This document shows, piece by piece, positions 48,181-56,391 of a stretch of 64,000 bases of DNA (its first letter is position 1; each line of letters starts with the position of its first letter). The notes under the pieces are model-generated. The model saw nothing but the letters and a program-made list of their open reading frames with translations, searched no databases and was not told the DNA's origin. The translations under genes were made by a program, and so were the position numbers. The DNA lies in the NCBI GenBank assembly GCA_902517455.1, contig CABYCN010000001.1:1-64000 (forward strand), given 5' to 3'. Source of the DNA: an uncultured Pelagibacteraceae bacterium. GTDB lineage: Bacteria > Pseudomonadota > Alphaproteobacteria > Pelagibacterales > Pelagibacteraceae.

Positions 48181-50253
48181 ATGTCAGAATTTTTTTTAGA
48201 ACTTTTTAGTGAAGAGATTCCTGCTGGACTACAAAAGAACTTAAGAGAAAAAATTTTTGAGGATTTTAAAGTTTTATTTGAGAAAAAATCTTTAAAATCT
48301 AAAAAAAGTTTTTCTTTATCTTCTCCTAATAGATTAGTAATAGTTTTTGAGGGACTCAATAAACAGATAGAGATTAAGCCTAAAGAGATAAAAGGTCCAA
48401 AAACTAATGCTCCCGACATAGCCTTGGAGGGTTTTTTAAGATCAAACACAATTGAAAAAAAAGATTTATTAAAAAAAAAAACTGAAAAAGGTGAATTTTA
48501 CTTTTACAAAACGAAATCAGGCGTTTTAAAAACTCACAATTTACTTGCAGAATTCATTCCAAAAATTTTAGGTAATTATCAATGGAAAAAATCAATGAAA
48601 TGGGGTGAATTTGACTTAAATTGGGGAAGACCATTGAAATCGATTTTATCAATATTTGATAAAAAGATCGTTAGTTTTAAGTTTCATCATTTAATTTCCT
48701 CAAATTTAACTTTTATAGATAAAGATTTTGAAGAAAAGAAAAAATCTTTTGAAAATTTTAAGGTATACGAAAAATTTTTTGAAAAAATCGGGGTCTTCAT
48801 CAATCACAATAAAAGACAAAAGATCATTAATAGATCTTTCTCAAAAATATTGATTAAAAGAAAATTAAAGATTAATGAAAATCCTAAGCTTATTGATGAG
48901 GTAGTAAATTTAGTTGATAGTCCAAATATCTTATTATGTAAATTTGATCAAAAATTTTTACTGGTTCCCAAGGAGATTTTAACCTTGACTATGGAGTCTC
49001 ATCAAAAATATTTTCCAACCTTTAATTACAAAAATGAGATCACTAATGAATTTTTAATTGTAACTAATAAAAAAGATCAAAAAGGACTTATCAAAATTGG
49101 CAATGAAAGAGTAGTAGATGCAAGATTAAGTGATGCGGAATTTTTCTGGAACAAAGATAAATCACAAAACTTAGTAAAAAAAGTTTCAGAATTAAAATCA
49201 ATGAATTTTTTTAAAGGGCTTGGAACCTATTTTGATAAAGTACAACGTATGCGAAAACTTGGTGGAATGATTTCAGATGAATTATTAATCAGCAAAGAAA
49301 AAGTAGAATTGTCAGCCTCAATTTGTAAAACAGATTTGACATCTGACCTCGTAGATGAATACCCAGAACTTCAAGGTTTATTAGGGGGATATTTTTCCGA
49401 AAATCAAGGTTTTGATAAAGATATCTCTCAAGCAATAAGAGAGCAATATTTACCAATTGGTCTCGATTCTCAGGTTCCAAAAAAATCACTTAGCATAGCA
49501 TTATCTATTACTGACAAAATTGATTCTTTAGTAGGTTTTTTTGGCATTAATGAAAAACCAACAAGTTCAAAAGACCCTTTAGCATTGAGAAGAACTGCTT
49601 TAGGTATCATTAGAACTGTAATAGAAAATAATAAGAATTTAAAAATAACTGATCAATTAATTTATTCTTCACGTTTATATGAGGATCAAGGATATAATCT
49701 TGAAAATAAAGATTTACAAAAAGAATTACATTTTTTTTTAAAAGAAAGATTTAAATATTATTTAAAGGAAAAGGAAATTCGATACGATATAATTGATGCT
49801 ACTATGTCGTCAATTTCATTAAATAATTTATATTCTTCTTTTCAAAAAGCTAAATATCTTAACAAAGTTATAAATAATCAAATTGGTATAGATATAAACT
49901 CAAGTTACAAAAGGGCCTCGAGTATTTTAGATAATGAAATGAAAAATAACGAAATAGAGATCAATGACACAACTGATCCAAATATCTTTAAAAGTGATTT
50001 TGAAAAAAATTTATTTAAAAAAATTAATGAAATTAATAAATATTATTCTTCTATAAATGATGATGAAAATTATGAAAAATCGTTATCAATTTTAGCCGAA
50101 ACTAAAAAAGAAGTTTTTGAGTTTTTTGACAATGTAAAAGTAAATGAAGAAAATGAAACTCTAAGAAAAAACCGATTGGAACTCGTTAATTTGTTATGTA
50201 AAACGTTTCAAAATTATATAAATTTTCAATTCTTAAAAGCAAATAATGAATAA
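48181..50253 (+). CDS. glyS: Glycyl-tRNA synthetase beta subunit
   Basis: FFLELFSEEIPAGLQ...LTMESHQKYFPTF...DPLALRRTALGIIR. Confidence 0.95.
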   Translation: MSEFFLELFSEEIPAGLQKNLREKIFEDFKVLFEKKSLKSKKSFSLSSPNRLVIVFEGLNKQIEIKPKEIKGPKTNAPDIALEGFLRSNTIEKKDLLKKKTEKGEFYFYKTKSGVLKTHNLLAEFIPKILGNYQWKKSMKWGEFDLNWGRPLKSILSIFDKKIVSFKFHHLISSNLTFIDKDFEEKKKSFENFKVYEKFFEKIGVFINHNKRQKIINRSFSKILIKRKLKINENPKLIDEVVNLVDSPNILLCKFDQKFLLVPKEILTLTMESHQKYFPTFNYKNEITNEFLIVTNKKDQKGLIKIGNERVVDARLSDAEFFWNKDKSQNLVKKVSELKSMNFFKGLGTYFDKVQRMRKLGGMISDELLISKEKVELSASICKTDLTSDLVDEYPELQGLLGGYFSENQGFDKDISQAIREQYLPIGLDSQVPKKSLSIALSITDKIDSLVGFFGINEKPTSSKDPLALRRTALGIIRTVIENNKNLKITDQLIYSSRLYEDQGYNLENKDLQKELHFFLKERFKYYLKEKEIRYDIIDATMSSISLNNLYSSFQKAKYLNKVINNQIGIDINSSYKRASSILDNEMKNNEIEINDTTDPNIFKSDFEKNLFKKINEINKYYSSINDDENYEKSLSILAETKKEVFEFFDNVKVNEENETLRKNRLELVNLLCKTFQNYINFQFLKANNE

Positions 50254-52912
50254 ACTTATTTTAAATTTTAATTCAAAAGTTACAAAAAAAATAAAAAACC
50301 CGAAAAATTTTTTAGGCGGTAAAGGTGCTAATTTATCTGAAATGGGCAGGATGGGTTTACCAGTACCACCTGGTTTCACTATATCAACAAAAGTTTGTGA
50401 AATATTTTATAAAGACAAAAAAAAATTAAACTTAAAATTAATTAGTCAAATTAAAAAAGAAATCAGGAAAGTAGAAAAAGATGTATACAAAAAATTTGGA
50501 GATTTAAAAAATCCTCTTCTTTTATCTGTAAGATCGGGAGCAAGAGTTTCAATGCCAGGTATGATGGATACAATTCTGAATCTTGGGCTTAATGACAAAA
50601 CTGTACTTGCATTGGCTAACAAAACGTCAAATGGAAGGTTTGCAAAAGACAGTTATAGAAGATTCATACAAATGTATGGCAGCGTTGTTATGGGTGTTGA
50701 GAGTTATCGTTTCGAGGAGTTAATAGAAAATTATAAATTAACTAAAGGCGTATTACTCGATACAGAATTAGATGAACAAGACTGGGATGGTTTAATTATA
50801 GATTTTAAAAATTTGGTTAACCAAAAATCTAAAGAAGAGTTTCCACAAGATGTTTATAAACAATTATTTGGAGCTATAGGTGCAGTATTTTTATCTTGGG
50901 AAAGTAATAGATCAAAAGTTTATAGAAAATTAAATCAAATTCCATCAGAGTGGGGTACGGCAGTTAATGTTCAATCTATGGTATTTGGAAATATGGGAGA
51001 TGATTGTGCGACTGGTGTAGTATTTACAAGAAACCCATCGGATGGCTCAAATAACATTTACGGAGAATATCTTATCAACGCTCAAGGCGAGGATGTAGTG
51101 GCTGGTACTAGAACACCTCAATACATAACAAAAAAAGCAAAGAATGAAGCAAAAGTTAGTGATGCTTCAATGGAGGAGTCGATGCCAAAAGTTTATTCAA
51201 AGTTATATAAAATTTTAAAAAAACTTGAGAAACATTATAAAGATATGCAAGACGTAGAATTTACAGTTGAAAGTGAAAAACTTTGGATATTACAAACTCG
51301 CTCAGGTAAACGAACATCAAAATCTGCAGTTAAGATAGCTGTCGATATGGTTAAAGAAAAGCTAATTTCAAAAAAAGATGCTGTTTTAAGAATTGATCCA
51401 AATTCACTTGATACTTTATTACATCCAACTTTAGACGAAAAAAGTTCAATTGATTTAATTGCGAATGGATTGCCTGCCTCTCCCGGTGCTGCCAGTGGAA
51501 AAGTAGTTTTTTCCTCTGAAGATGCTGAAAGATTAAATGATATGATGCAAGATACTATACTTGTTAGAATAGAAACATCACCAGAGGATATTCAAGGTAT
51601 GCATGCTGCTAAGGGAATTTTAACAGCTAGGGGTGGCATGACTAGTCATGCTGCGGTAGTTGCAAGAGGAATGGGAAGACCCTGTGTTTCTGGCTCTAGT
51701 GAAATTGAAATTAATTATGAAAAAAAGATATTTAAAACATCATCAGTTGAAGTTAAAGAAGGTGAGATTATCACAATAGATGGCTCAACTGGAAGAGTCA
51801 TTCTAGGAAATGTGCCAACAGTAAAACCAGAAATTTCAGGAGACTTTTCAAAATTAATGGGATGGGCAGATAATATAAGAAAATTAAAGGTTAGAACAAA
51901 TTCTGAAACTCCAATTGATACAAAGATCGCAAGAGAATTTGGAGCGGAGGGAATCGGGCTATGCAGAACAGAACATATGTTTTTCGAAGAAGAAAGGATT
52001 TTATCCGTTAGAGAAATGATATTATCAAAAACTCAAGAGGATAGAGCTAAAGCTTTAGAAAAACTTTTGCCACACCAGAAAAAAGATTTTATGGAAATAT
52101 TTAAGATTATGCACGGCCTTCCAGTTACTGTGAGATTGCTAGATCCTCCTCTTCACGAATTTTTACCTAAGTCCGATAAAGAAATATCTGAAATTTCAAA
52201 AATTGTAAATGTAGACTTAAAAGAGGTTAAGTCAAGAATAGACGAACTTCATGAGCAAAATCCAATGTTGGGTCATAGAGGTTGTAGATTAGGAATCTCT
52301 TTTCCTGAAATTTACGAGATGCAGTGTAGAGCGATTTTTGAAGCTTTGACAGATCTCAAAAAGACCAAGCAAAAATCGGCTTTTCCAGAAATAATGATAC
52401 CACTTGTCTCAACTGAAGCAGAAATAAGAATAATGAAAAATCTTGTGATAAATGTCGCAAAAAAAATTCAACAAGAAAATAACATGAAAATTAATTTTTT
52501 GGTGGGAACAATGATAGAATTACCTCGAGCAGCAATCAAAGCAAAAGATATTGCTAAGCATGCAGAATTTTTTAGTTTTGGAACTAATGATTTAACTCAA
52601 ACTACTTTTGGGATTAGTAGAGATGATAGTGGAAAATTTTTAAATGATTATATAGATAATAAAATTTTTTCCATAGATCCGTTTATTTCAATTGATGATG
52701 GAGTTCAAGATTTAATTGAAATAGCAGTAAATAAAGCAAAAAAACAAAATAAAAATATTAAACTAGGAATTTGTGGTGAACACGGAGGTGATCCAAAAAG
52801 CATTATTTTCTGTTCAAAAACAGGTTTACATTATGTATCATGTTCACCTTATAGGGTTCCTATAGCAAGATTAGCCGCAGCACAAGCGGAGCTGAAAAAA
52901 AATAAAAAATAA
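50246..52912 (+). CDS. ppdK: Pyruvate, phosphate dikinase
   Basis: GGKGANLSEMGRMGLPVPPGFTIST...GGMTSHAAVVARGMGRPCVSG...GEHGGDPKSIIFCSKTGLHYVSCSPYRVPIARLAAAQ. Confidence 0.97.
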   Translation: MNKLILNFNSKVTKKIKNPKNFLGGKGANLSEMGRMGLPVPPGFTISTKVCEIFYKDKKKLNLKLISQIKKEIRKVEKDVYKKFGDLKNPLLLSVRSGARVSMPGMMDTILNLGLNDKTVLALANKTSNGRFAKDSYRRFIQMYGSVVMGVESYRFEELIENYKLTKGVLLDTELDEQDWDGLIIDFKNLVNQKSKEEFPQDVYKQLFGAIGAVFLSWESNRSKVYRKLNQIPSEWGTAVNVQSMVFGNMGDDCATGVVFTRNPSDGSNNIYGEYLINAQGEDVVAGTRTPQYITKKAKNEAKVSDASMEESMPKVYSKLYKILKKLEKHYKDMQDVEFTVESEKLWILQTRSGKRTSKSAVKIAVDMVKEKLISKKDAVLRIDPNSLDTLLHPTLDEKSSIDLIANGLPASPGAASGKVVFSSEDAERLNDMMQDTILVRIETSPEDIQGMHAAKGILTARGGMTSHAAVVARGMGRPCVSGSSEIEINYEKKIFKTSSVEVKEGEIITIDGSTGRVILGNVPTVKPEISGDFSKLMGWADNIRKLKVRTNSETPIDTKIAREFGAEGIGLCRTEHMFFEEERILSVREMILSKTQEDRAKALEKLLPHQKKDFMEIFKIMHGLPVTVRLLDPPLHEFLPKSDKEISEISKIVNVDLKEVKSRIDELHEQNPMLGHRGCRLGISFPEIYEMQCRAIFEALTDLKKTKQKSAFPEIMIPLVSTEAEIRIMKNLVINVAKKIQQENNMKINFLVGTMIELPRAAIKAKDIAKHAEFFSFGTNDLTQTTFGISRDDSGKFLNDYIDNKIFSIDPFISIDDGVQDLIEIAVNKAKKQNKNIKLGICGEHGGDPKSIIFCSKTGLHYVSCSPYRVPIARLAAAQAELKKNKK

Positions 52913-52917
52913 TTTGG

Positions 52918-52944
52918 AGGGGCGTTCTGTTGCCAGGTGCCCCG
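52918..52944. repeat. 27-bp perfect direct repeat, copy 1
   Basis: AGGGGCGTTCTGTTGCCAGGTGCCCCG, identical to 53182-53208. Confidence 0.95.
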
Positions 52945-52953
52945 AACTTTTTT
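52918..52953 (+). terminator. Hairpin with T run after ppdK; copy 1 of the 27-bp repeat
   Basis: AGGGGCGTTCTGTTGCCAGGTGCCCCG followed by AAC and a T run; GGGGC/GCCCC stem. Confidence 0.7.
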
Positions 52954-52954
52954 A

Positions 52955-53149
52955 TTATATTACATTATCTTTAAAATCATCGAATGCGTAAATTAAATTT
53001 GCTATTGAAAAAATTAAAAGCCCATGGTGCGCTGCAAATCCATCAAATGCATGTATTCCCATTTCAAAAGATATTTCTACTAGACAAGATGCGCACAAAA
53101 GTAAAGTTACTACAATCATTATTATTTTATGAATTTTAGTTTTTATCAT
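52955..53149 (-). CDS. Small hypothetical membrane protein (64 aa) between the repeat copies
   Basis: MIKTKIHKIIMIVVTLLLCASCLVEISFEMGIHAFDGFAAHHGLLIFSIANLIYAFDDFKDNVI; two hydrophobic segments. Coding status uncertain. Confidence 0.45.
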   Translation of the reverse strand: MIKTKIHKIIMIVVTLLLCASCLVEISFEMGIHAFDGFAAHHGLLIFSIANLIYAFDDFKDNVI

Positions 53150-53181
53150 ATTGTTTCCATATTATTTGTTATTGTTTGACA

Positions 53182-53208
53182 AGGGGCGTTCTGTTGCCAG
53201 GTGCCCCG
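53182..53208. repeat. 27-bp perfect direct repeat, copy 2 (3' hairpin of the tmRNA coding piece)
   Basis: Identical to 52918-52944; on the minus strand CGGGGCACCTGGCAACAGAACGCCCC folds with an inner CTG-GCAA-CAG hairpin. Confidence 0.95.
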
Positions 53209-53443
53209 GACCCCGTTTACTTAATTAACATTGTTAATTAAGCAGCAAGTGCATAACTTTCGTTAGCAATTATAAATTAGCCCGTTGCGGTGGAACAATT
53301 CCGAACGAAAGAATAGCCTTTAGTCACCCGTCGAATCTAGTTCACCCCCATAAGTTGTAAATGGTGGAGGTGGTGGGTACTGCCCCCACGTCCGCAATGG
53401 TTATTACGAAATTCGTTTATCGTCGTAGTTGGCAAGCCAACTC
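53183..53443 (-). ncRNA. ssrA: Transfer-messenger RNA, circularly permuted two-piece form (alphaproteobacterial type)
   Basis: Minus strand order: acceptor piece ...GGACGTGGGGGCAGTACCCACCACCTCCACCA (3' end 53362); 12-nt spacer; coding piece GGGGGTGAACTAGATTCGACGGG... (5' end 53349); tag frame GCT AAC GAA AGT TAT GCA CTT GCT GCT TAA = ANESYALAA* (53267-53238); terminal hairpin. Acceptor stem GGGGGTG/CACCTCC keeps G3:U70. Outer ends approximate. Confidence 0.92.
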
Positions 53444-53447
53444 TATT

Positions 53448-53475
53448 AATATAAAAACAATTACAAGAGATTCAA
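53448..53475 (-). promoter_or_regulatory. Candidate promoter for ssrA
   Basis: On the minus strand TTGAAT (53475-53470), 16-nt spacer, TATATT (53453-53448), just upstream of the acceptor piece. Confidence 0.55.
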
Positions 53476-53483
53476 TAAAAATC

Positions 53484-54431
53484 ATGAAATTAACTAAAGA
53501 ACAATCAAAAGAGATTAAAGATCAACAATCTCAACAAAATTCAACAAAAAGAGTCACGGTTCCTGAGCTTGAAAAAATTCTTTATGAAGCAATGCCAGCT
53601 CTTGATCATGGATTTGTGAGGGTGGTAGATTACATGGGTGATGATACATCAATTGTTCAGTCTGCAAGGGTCTCATACGGAAAAGGGACCAAACAAGTCT
53701 CGTCAGATGCTGGGCTTATTAAATATTTGATGAGGCATTGGCATAGCACTCCATTTGAGATGTGCGAAATAAAGTATCATGTAAAACTACCAATATTTAT
53801 AGCTCGACAGTGGATTAGACATAGAACAGCAAATGTTAATGAATACTCAGCAAGATATTCTATTTTGGATAAAGAATTCTATTTACCCACAGCAGAAAAT
53901 TTAGCAGCTCAATCCTCAATCAACAGACAAGGAAGAGGTGATGTGATTGAAGGGGAACAAGCCAAAGAAGTTTTAGAGCTTTTGAAAAATGATGCTGAAA
54001 GAACCTATGATAATTATGAAATGATGCTCAATGAGAGATTTGATGGGTCTACGATTGATGAAAATAAAAAAGGCTTAGCAAGAGAGCTGGCAAGAATGAA
54101 CTTAACTTTAAATACTTATACCCAGTGGTATTGGAAAACAGATTTGCTGAATTTAATGAATTTTTTGAGATTAAGAGCTGACAGTCACGCTCAATATGAA
54201 ATTAGAGTTTATGCAGATTTAATGTTAGACACTGTAAAAAAATGGGTTCCTATTACTTATGATGCATTTATGGATTATAGGGTTGGCGGAACAGAAGTTT
54301 CTGCTAAAGGAAAGCTAATTATTCAAAAACTAATTAAAGGTGAGAAAGTTGATGCAGAAAACTCAGGATTATCTAAGAGAGAGTGGAATGAGCTTATGAT
54401 TGCTTTTGATCTTAAAGATAGGTTGATTTAA
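53484..54431 (+). CDS. thyX: Flavin-dependent thymidylate synthase ThyX
   Basis: [22 protein letters not shown] (ThyX RHRxxxxxxxS motif). The N-terminal extension in the track (from 53361) lies in tmRNA sequence; ATG at 53484 is more plausible. Confidence 0.95.
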
Positions 54432-55287: not shown

Positions 55288-56391
55288 ATGTCAGATGATT
55301 TTAGGCAAAGAGGTGGAAGCCCTTGGGGAAGCCCCCCGGGAGGTGGAAGTGGTAATGGCTCAGGAAGAGGCCCAACACCACCAGATATTGAAAAAATTAT
55401 AAGAGAATTTCAAGAAAAAATTAGAAAATTTTTACCAGGAAACGGTTCTTCTGGAGGCAAACAAGCTATTTTAGTTTTAATTATTCTAGGTTTCATATGG
55501 TTAGCAAGTGGACTTTATAGAGTTTTACCAGATGAACAAGGAGTTGTTCTAAGATTTGGTAAGTTTGTAAAAACGACACAACCTGGATTAAATTATCACA
55601 TACCTTTTCCAGTTGAGTCAGTGCTTACACCAAAAGTTACAAAAGTTAACAGAATAGATATTGGTTTTAGGTCAGAGAGGGATAGCGGATTTTCTTCTTC
55701 AGGAGGGGTAGCAGATGTACCACAAGAAAGCTTAATGCTTACTGGAGACGAAAATATAGTAAACATAGATTTTTCAGTTTTTTGGGTAATTAAAGATGCA
55801 GGAAATTTTTTATTCAAGATCCAAGATCCGGAGGGTACCGTTAAAGCTGCAGCTGAAACAGCAATGAGAGAGGTGATTGCTAGATCTAATATTCAACCTA
55901 TTTTAACAGAGGGTAGATCAGTAATAGAGACTGATACACAAGAAATAATCCAAAAAATTTTAGATGAATATACTAGTGGAATTCAAATTACTCAGGTTCA
56001 AACCCAAAAAGCTGATCCACCAGATCAAGTTATTGATGCATTTAGAGATGTTCAAGCTGCAAGAGCTGATATGGAGAGATCAAAAAACGAGGCTGAAGCT
56101 TATGCTAATGATGTAATTCCAAGAGCAAGAGGAGAAGCACAAAAAATTCTTCAAGCCGCAGAGGCTTACAAAAAAGAGGTTGTTGCGAAAGCAGAAGGTG
56201 AAGCAAGTAGGTTTTTGGCAATCTATAACGAATATAAATTGGCTAAATCAGTAACTCAAGAAAGAATGTACTTAGAAACTATGGAAAAAGTTTTGGCTGA
56301 TATTGATAAAGTAATTATTGAGAAAAATGCAGGCTCAGGTGTTGTACCTTACCTTCCATTACCTGAATTAAAAAAGAAAGCGACTAATTAA
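55288..56391 (+). CDS. hflK: HflK
   Basis: Gly-rich N-terminus, TM, band-7/SPFH domain (LPDEQGVVLRFGKFVKTTQPGLNYHIPFPVE); followed by hflC. Confidence 0.95.
   Translation: MSDDFRQRGGSPWGSPPGGGSGNGSGRGPTPPDIEKIIREFQEKIRKFLPGNGSSGGKQAILVLIILGFIWLASGLYRVLPDEQGVVLRFGKFVKTTQPGLNYHIPFPVESVLTPKVTKVNRIDIGFRSERDSGFSSSGGVADVPQESLMLTGDENIVNIDFSVFWVIKDAGNFLFKIQDPEGTVKAAAETAMREVIARSNIQPILTEGRSVIETDTQEIIQKILDEYTSGIQITQVQTQKADPPDQVIDAFRDVQAARADMERSKNEAEAYANDVIPRARGEAQKILQAAEAYKKEVVAKAEGEASRFLAIYNEYKLAKSVTQERMYLETMEKVLADIDKVIIEKNAGSGVVPYLPLPELKKKATN

Follow-up and report, generated by a model that had tools for sequence, protein, structure and literature searches.

The question raised by this locus is why the end of a tmRNA gene should occur twice, in perfect copies, on either side of a single small reading frame. 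The window, by which is meant the whole 64,000-nucleotide stretch of Pelagibacteraceae DNA that was analysed, carries the 27-mer AGGGGCGTTCTGTTGCCAGGTGCCCCG on the plus strand at two positions, in the same orientation, without a mismatch and 264 bp apart from start to start, as the original prediction had read it (Table 1). The Rfam alpha_tmRNA match lies on the minus strand and ends at 53180, so that the right copy forms the hairpin in which the tmRNA coding piece ends, while the left copy is separated by 5 nt from the ppdK stop at 52912 and is followed after a few bases by CTTTTTT; both placements, and the small ORF between the copies, had likewise been predicted correctly. When the 27-mer was counted across the genome's own assembly (745 kb, 66% complete), only these two copies were found, and allowing up to 3 mismatches added none, either in the assembly or in the window (0 expected in shuffles); the assembly being 66% complete, an extra copy could still lie elsewhere in the genome. 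The insert contains the 64-aa ORF and nothing else, with no integrase gene of its own, and begins with GAACTTT, as do other units described below. The ORF shares its reading direction with ssrA, stops about 11 nt from the left core, has no Pfam or PHROG match and has a single homolog among 399 genomes, at 46% identity (L132, G274:C16:10744-10905). This homolog adjoins a tRNA-Leu gene without an ssrA core. The insert itself lies at the ssrA 3' end and carries a direct duplication of that end, by which it qualifies as an ssrA element. On the other side of the tmRNA gene, the longest frame of thyX (53361-54431) begins within ssrA, and the true thyX start probably lies further downstream, past the tmRNA gene, an issue likewise noted for HTCC1062 (PMC2704228). 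An Rfam CsrC match at 55330 was disregarded, as it scored 13.9 bits against a cut-off of 61.

Table 1. Features of the ppdK-ssrA interval, in positions of the window.
Feature	Position	Strand	Basis
ppdK (pyruvate, phosphate dikinase), left neighbour	50246..52912	+	888-aa ORF; synteny and empty sites in L045, L050, L099
Left attachment core, duplicate of the ssrA 3' hairpin	52918..52944	+	Exact 27-mer; position equals that of the single core of empty sites
Mini-cassette of 264 bp, core to core, one core counted	52918..53181	.	Missing from L045, L050, L099
Small ORF, 64 aa, hydrophobic	52955..53149	-	ORF list
Right core, terminal hairpin of the tmRNA coding piece	53182..53208	-	Exact 27-mer; Rfam
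ssrA, permuted two-piece tmRNA, tag ANESYALAA	53180..53479	-	Rfam RF01849, 220.7 bits; ARAGORN

Two origins had been offered for the left copy, namely that a miniature or residual element had entered the permuted ssrA at its end, or that the hairpin had been copied for use as a ppdK terminator, and relatives at the same junction bear on both. Across 399 genomes of the genus, the present one included (nearly all Pelagibacteraceae records, plus one Rhodobiaceae MAG, which places the host in SAR11), a search with a 23-bp core at up to 3 mismatches found the core in 340 of the 399 and in all 57 genomes of at least 90% completeness, 27 of which, by a count of rows, hold at least two copies. Single-copy loci present an empty site, in which ppdK or tRNA-Leu is followed directly by the ssrA hairpin (L045, L050, L099 and others); in the empty-site relatives with ppdK, the hairpin comes directly after the stop codon of that gene. 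Multi-copy loci present the order ppdK-core-insert-core-ssrA, the inserts being unrelated, or else arrays with as many as 5 cores; these loci were picked for several copies, so that their numbers are not frequencies. At the position of the mini-cassette itself other inserts are found in L074, L071, L084, L096 and L093, and direct copies of the hairpin flank each differing insert. Empty and filled sites were compared by listing the joined flanks; a MAFFT alignment misplaced the large gaps. The one-copy alleles and alternative inserts that the original prediction had said to look for are thus both present, and together with the recurrence of units from core to core they bear out an inserted element, making a strong case for insertion in the window. 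The outer cores of the multi-copy loci are often degenerate and the ssrA-proximal core is usually intact, as would be expected if new units enter beside ssrA. Within the genus the hairpin is not confined to ssrA: relatives carry extra copies both there and elsewhere, the same cores and some cassette gene families occur at at least three other chromosomal sites, and in the G028 lineage a loop variant, GTTACCCGG, is found at ssrA and also in cassette cores.

The intervals between cores behave as units. Their median length is 989 bp (n=73), and two small ones recur at full length, core to core, in unlike surroundings: L033 and L038 share 97% identity over 367 bp, and L064 and L082 share 94% over 269 bp, with dissimilar flanks on both sides in either pair. 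Both recurring units resemble the window insert in having a short ORF directed toward the left core with its stop near the core, another frame being slightly longer than this reverse ORF in L064. The majority of intervals below 560 bp contain such a reverse ORF, many of them hydrophobic, and those of the mini-cassettes often end within about 25 nt of the core. At the other extreme, a core-bounded unit of 7.5 kb (L100:2086-9566) carries an HsdM gene, confirmed by Pfam, beside ORFs that by inspection resemble HsdS and HsdR, and looks like a whole type I restriction-modification system taken up as cassette cargo. Further cargo comprises an MrcB-like protein, a SET-domain protein, a cupredoxin, a DUF805 protein and many small membrane or exported proteins.

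A second recurring feature lies beyond the core. The right flanks of cores other than that of ssrA fall into A/T-rich families and are followed by two direct words of 7-8 bp with an 11-bp period; among 88 distinct sites this period peaks at offsets +56 to +62, with 16 sites at offset 60, and any other period reaches at most 8 sites. The word varies by cassette (GACGCCA, TGTGCC, TTCCGTC, CCCGTAC, GTGCGGA, GCCGACT, GGACGAG and CCGACCAA, among others), and in 17 of the 27 cassettes with a strong pair it returns, on the same strand, at a distance of 40-95 bp to the left of the core that follows, against a mean of 3.0 and a maximum of 9 matched cassettes in 2000 shuffles of the right ends. A strong left-end pair is absent from 46 of the 73 intervals, and the window insert has no recognisable pair at either end. 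The pattern GACGCCA-N4-GACGCC has 4 matches in 201 genomes, every one at a cassette end, 3 of the 4 being in loci that had yielded the word. By their position, repetition and symmetry, the repeats are read as putative arm-type sites of an integrase. A role as promoter operators only was considered, since one flank family has its repeats close to -10-like sequences, and was set aside because the same word recurs at the opposite cassette end. A dispersed, REP-like repeat, which the original prediction had named as the finding that would overturn it, was rejected because the copies bound units whose arms are matched; extra copies do exist in relatives, but as cassette boundaries.

Candidates for the recombinase are few. 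Matches to PF00589, the tyrosine recombinase family, mostly number one per genome in the 37 array genomes, and only two integrases in the 399 genomes, both of this family, are adjacent to ssrA (G201 and G282; loci L076 and L272). That of G201 lies inside a 6.2-kb core-bounded element adjoining ssrA, together with a primase-like gene (DUF5906; PHROG DNA primase), and its closest relative among the 399 genomes is that of G282, 52% identical and immediately beside the ssrA core; the other 17 relatives are at most 44% identical, most of them 28-34%, and those whose loci were opened sit elsewhere, some at tRNA-Met genes. The G201 element has CGACCAAA at both ends and the G282 integrase region carries GACGCCACCATGACGCC, and both words are also found in integrase-less cassettes, a sharing that supports mobilisation in trans. 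In other SAR11 genomes, tyrosine integrases that share about 30% identity with the ssrA-adjacent one stand beside tRNA-Met (L280, L281, L282), which suggests parallel families of site-specific elements at that gene. As to a vehicle, the search of IMG/VR turned up no contig, from phages or viromes, that carries an attP-like core; the exact 25-bp core, tried as a phage attP, occurred there only within phage tmRNA genes with the tag ADENLALAA or similar. A looser 18-mer drew from the viral contigs more phage tmRNAs and four partial matches (L287, L289, L293 and L294), in which neither a tmRNA nor an integrase was identified. A pattern scan of viral contigs found no relative of the L076 integrase, and its comparison with GenBank phages gave no match of at least 60% identity, the best being about 31%. 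Permuted tmRNA genes were observed on IMG/VR contigs L053-L060, L286, L288, L290-L292 and L295, with the tags ADENLALAA, ANDDMVFALAA and ANDNEAFSLAA and one called as AKTINADENLALAA. Of the viral contigs with a permuted tmRNA, eight hold the 25-bp core of SAR11 ssrA without a change, which means that an attachment site could be offered by a phage genome itself.

These data allow a model for the locus and for the genus. It is probable that the insert in the window is a mini-cassette without an integrase, integrated at ssrA. In related genomes the end of this gene is a busy insertion spot where small cassettes lacking a recombinase pile up, probably moved in trans by integrases that are encoded elsewhere. 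The attachment core would be the 25-27-bp terminal hairpin of ssrA, and integration would preserve the ssrA end at one border of the insert and place a second core next to ppdK at the other border. The insert would then represent the smallest class of a genus-wide system, whose units span about 0.2-7.5 kb, mostly have no recombinase gene and are stacked in arrays of direct repeats, both at ssrA and at several secondary positions with the same core. At each end of the longer cassettes lies a lambda-like attachment half, made of the core, an A/T-rich spacer and two direct arm words of 7-8 bp; tyrosine integrases encoded by satellite-like elements at ssrA, or by phages, would bind the core and the matching arm word and thereby move the cassettes. 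With perfect cores and no arm pair, the insert is classed as a mini-cassette whose own mobility is putative, and it may have arrived with an armed neighbour that later left. Somewhat more tentatively, the system may be a two-part one, in which a universal core supplies the target and the variable arm words allot every integrase-less cassette to one among several integrase specificities, several helper elements thereby using a single array of small genes; arm-less reverse mini-cassettes like that of the window would form another class, in which the hairpin doubles as attachment site and as terminator for the gene of the cassette.

Other explanations must be weighed against this model. The insert could be the decayed end of a larger ssrA element or array, in which an internal deletion left 264 bp; larger elements are in fact present at this site in relatives (L076, L100), and the insert has neither arms nor a recombinase. 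However, neither of its cores has a mismatch, its ORF is unbroken and has a homolog, and other mini-cassettes, 204-343 bp long and of the same layout, are found repeatedly as whole units, so that decay is regarded as unlikely. It is quite unlikely that the cassettes spread by homologous recombination between shared cores and flanks, or by natural transformation, with a site-specific step that is rare or ancient. Frequent recombination has been proposed for SAR11 (PMC2217521) and the cores within arrays are identical, but 25 bp is short for efficient homologous recombination, recurring units lack similarity in their flanks, and arms are matched and maintained within each cassette but have diverged from one cassette to another.

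Segmental duplication or gene conversion, with the left hairpin then kept as a terminator for ppdK and for the small reverse ORF, would dispense with a mobile element altogether. The hairpin folds stably on both strands, a T run follows the left copy on the ppdK strand, and the stops of mini-cassette reverse ORFs cluster near cores; yet a terminator scan gave no site at the left hairpin, and neither the empty sites and alternative inserts found at this junction nor the core-to-core recurrence of units with matched arms would follow from such an origin, which is very unlikely and not needed to account for the duplicate. What survives of the predicted terminator is a secondary role, in that the left core may terminate ppdK or the 64-aa ORF. 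Finally, many records of the genus look like single-cell genomes, where chimeras occur, but an artefact of assembly or amplification is scarcely credible, as independent genomes, some 97-99% complete (G338, G158, G195), have the same core-bounded layout with coherent ORFs.

The integrated mini-cassette and its larger relatives combine traits of several known systems. In the attachment sites of phage lambda a core is joined through an A/T-rich spacer to arm-type direct repeats, and the integrase bridges core and arms; the armed SAR11 cassettes have the same three parts, but the arm words beside their common core change from one cassette to the next, and no int gene is carried by the units. Integron cassettes and the arrays of them that lack an integrase (CALIN) are small gene units with a hairpin-forming site between them, moved in trans, and are in this respect like the SAR11 arrays with their hairpin-forming core. 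However, the SAR11 core is a conserved ssrA sequence forming a short hairpin, whereas attC is conserved in structure; SAR11 cassettes have repeats resembling integrase arm sites and many reverse ORFs, and no intI was identified near them among the adjacent integrases, which alone were classified. In the hypervariable regions of SAR11, an earlier study detected no attC or other integron-type site (PMC2217521). In Dehalococcoides, tandem units at the ssrA 3' end are bounded by short direct repeats of 20 bp of the tmRNA gene 3' end, the recombinase is the serine recombinase DsiB, and many units lack an integration module and were suggested to be cis-mobilizable (PMC3146451). SAR11 shares the tandem arrangement and the ssrA-end repeats but has a permuted-tmRNA hairpin as its core, much smaller units, variable and matched arm words, and tyrosine integrases, the two beside ssrA being of that family and not a DsiB/DsiA-type serine module. 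Additive flexible genomic islands of Methylophilaceae have tRNA-end repeats and lie at tRNA-Lys, and the parts of that account consulted describe them without arm sites, core-to-core unit analysis or a cognate integrase (PMC10872708). Tycheposons, as described in the same source, span 4-200 kb at a tRNA-gene border and carry their recombinase; like the SAR11 units they are tyrosine-recombinase elements at RNA genes of streamlined marine bacteria, but on that description they differ from units with a median of about 1 kb that mostly lack a recombinase, and from the window insert, which has 264 bp, sits at ssrA and has none.

The use of ssrA as an integration site, tandem ssrA islands (PMC3146451) and additive islands with tRNA-end repeats (PMC10872708) were thus already known. 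A literature search covering at most a minority of subscription papers found no report of such ssrA cassettes in SAR11. Three aspects appear to be new, namely the scale of the system in SAR11, the small units without an integrase, and the arm words, which are matched within a cassette and specific to it on a core common to all; the original prediction, which considered one locus, had missed that such core-bounded cassettes, most of them without an integrase and with matched arm sites as a class, extend across the genus. SAR11 cells rank among the most numerous in the ocean, and their genomes are streamlined. The core, the readable arm words and the empty and occupied alleles provide a testable entry route for small genes, including restriction-modification, into these genomes, and the SAR11 cassettes constitute a natural data set for the diversification of arm specificity in tyrosine integrases.
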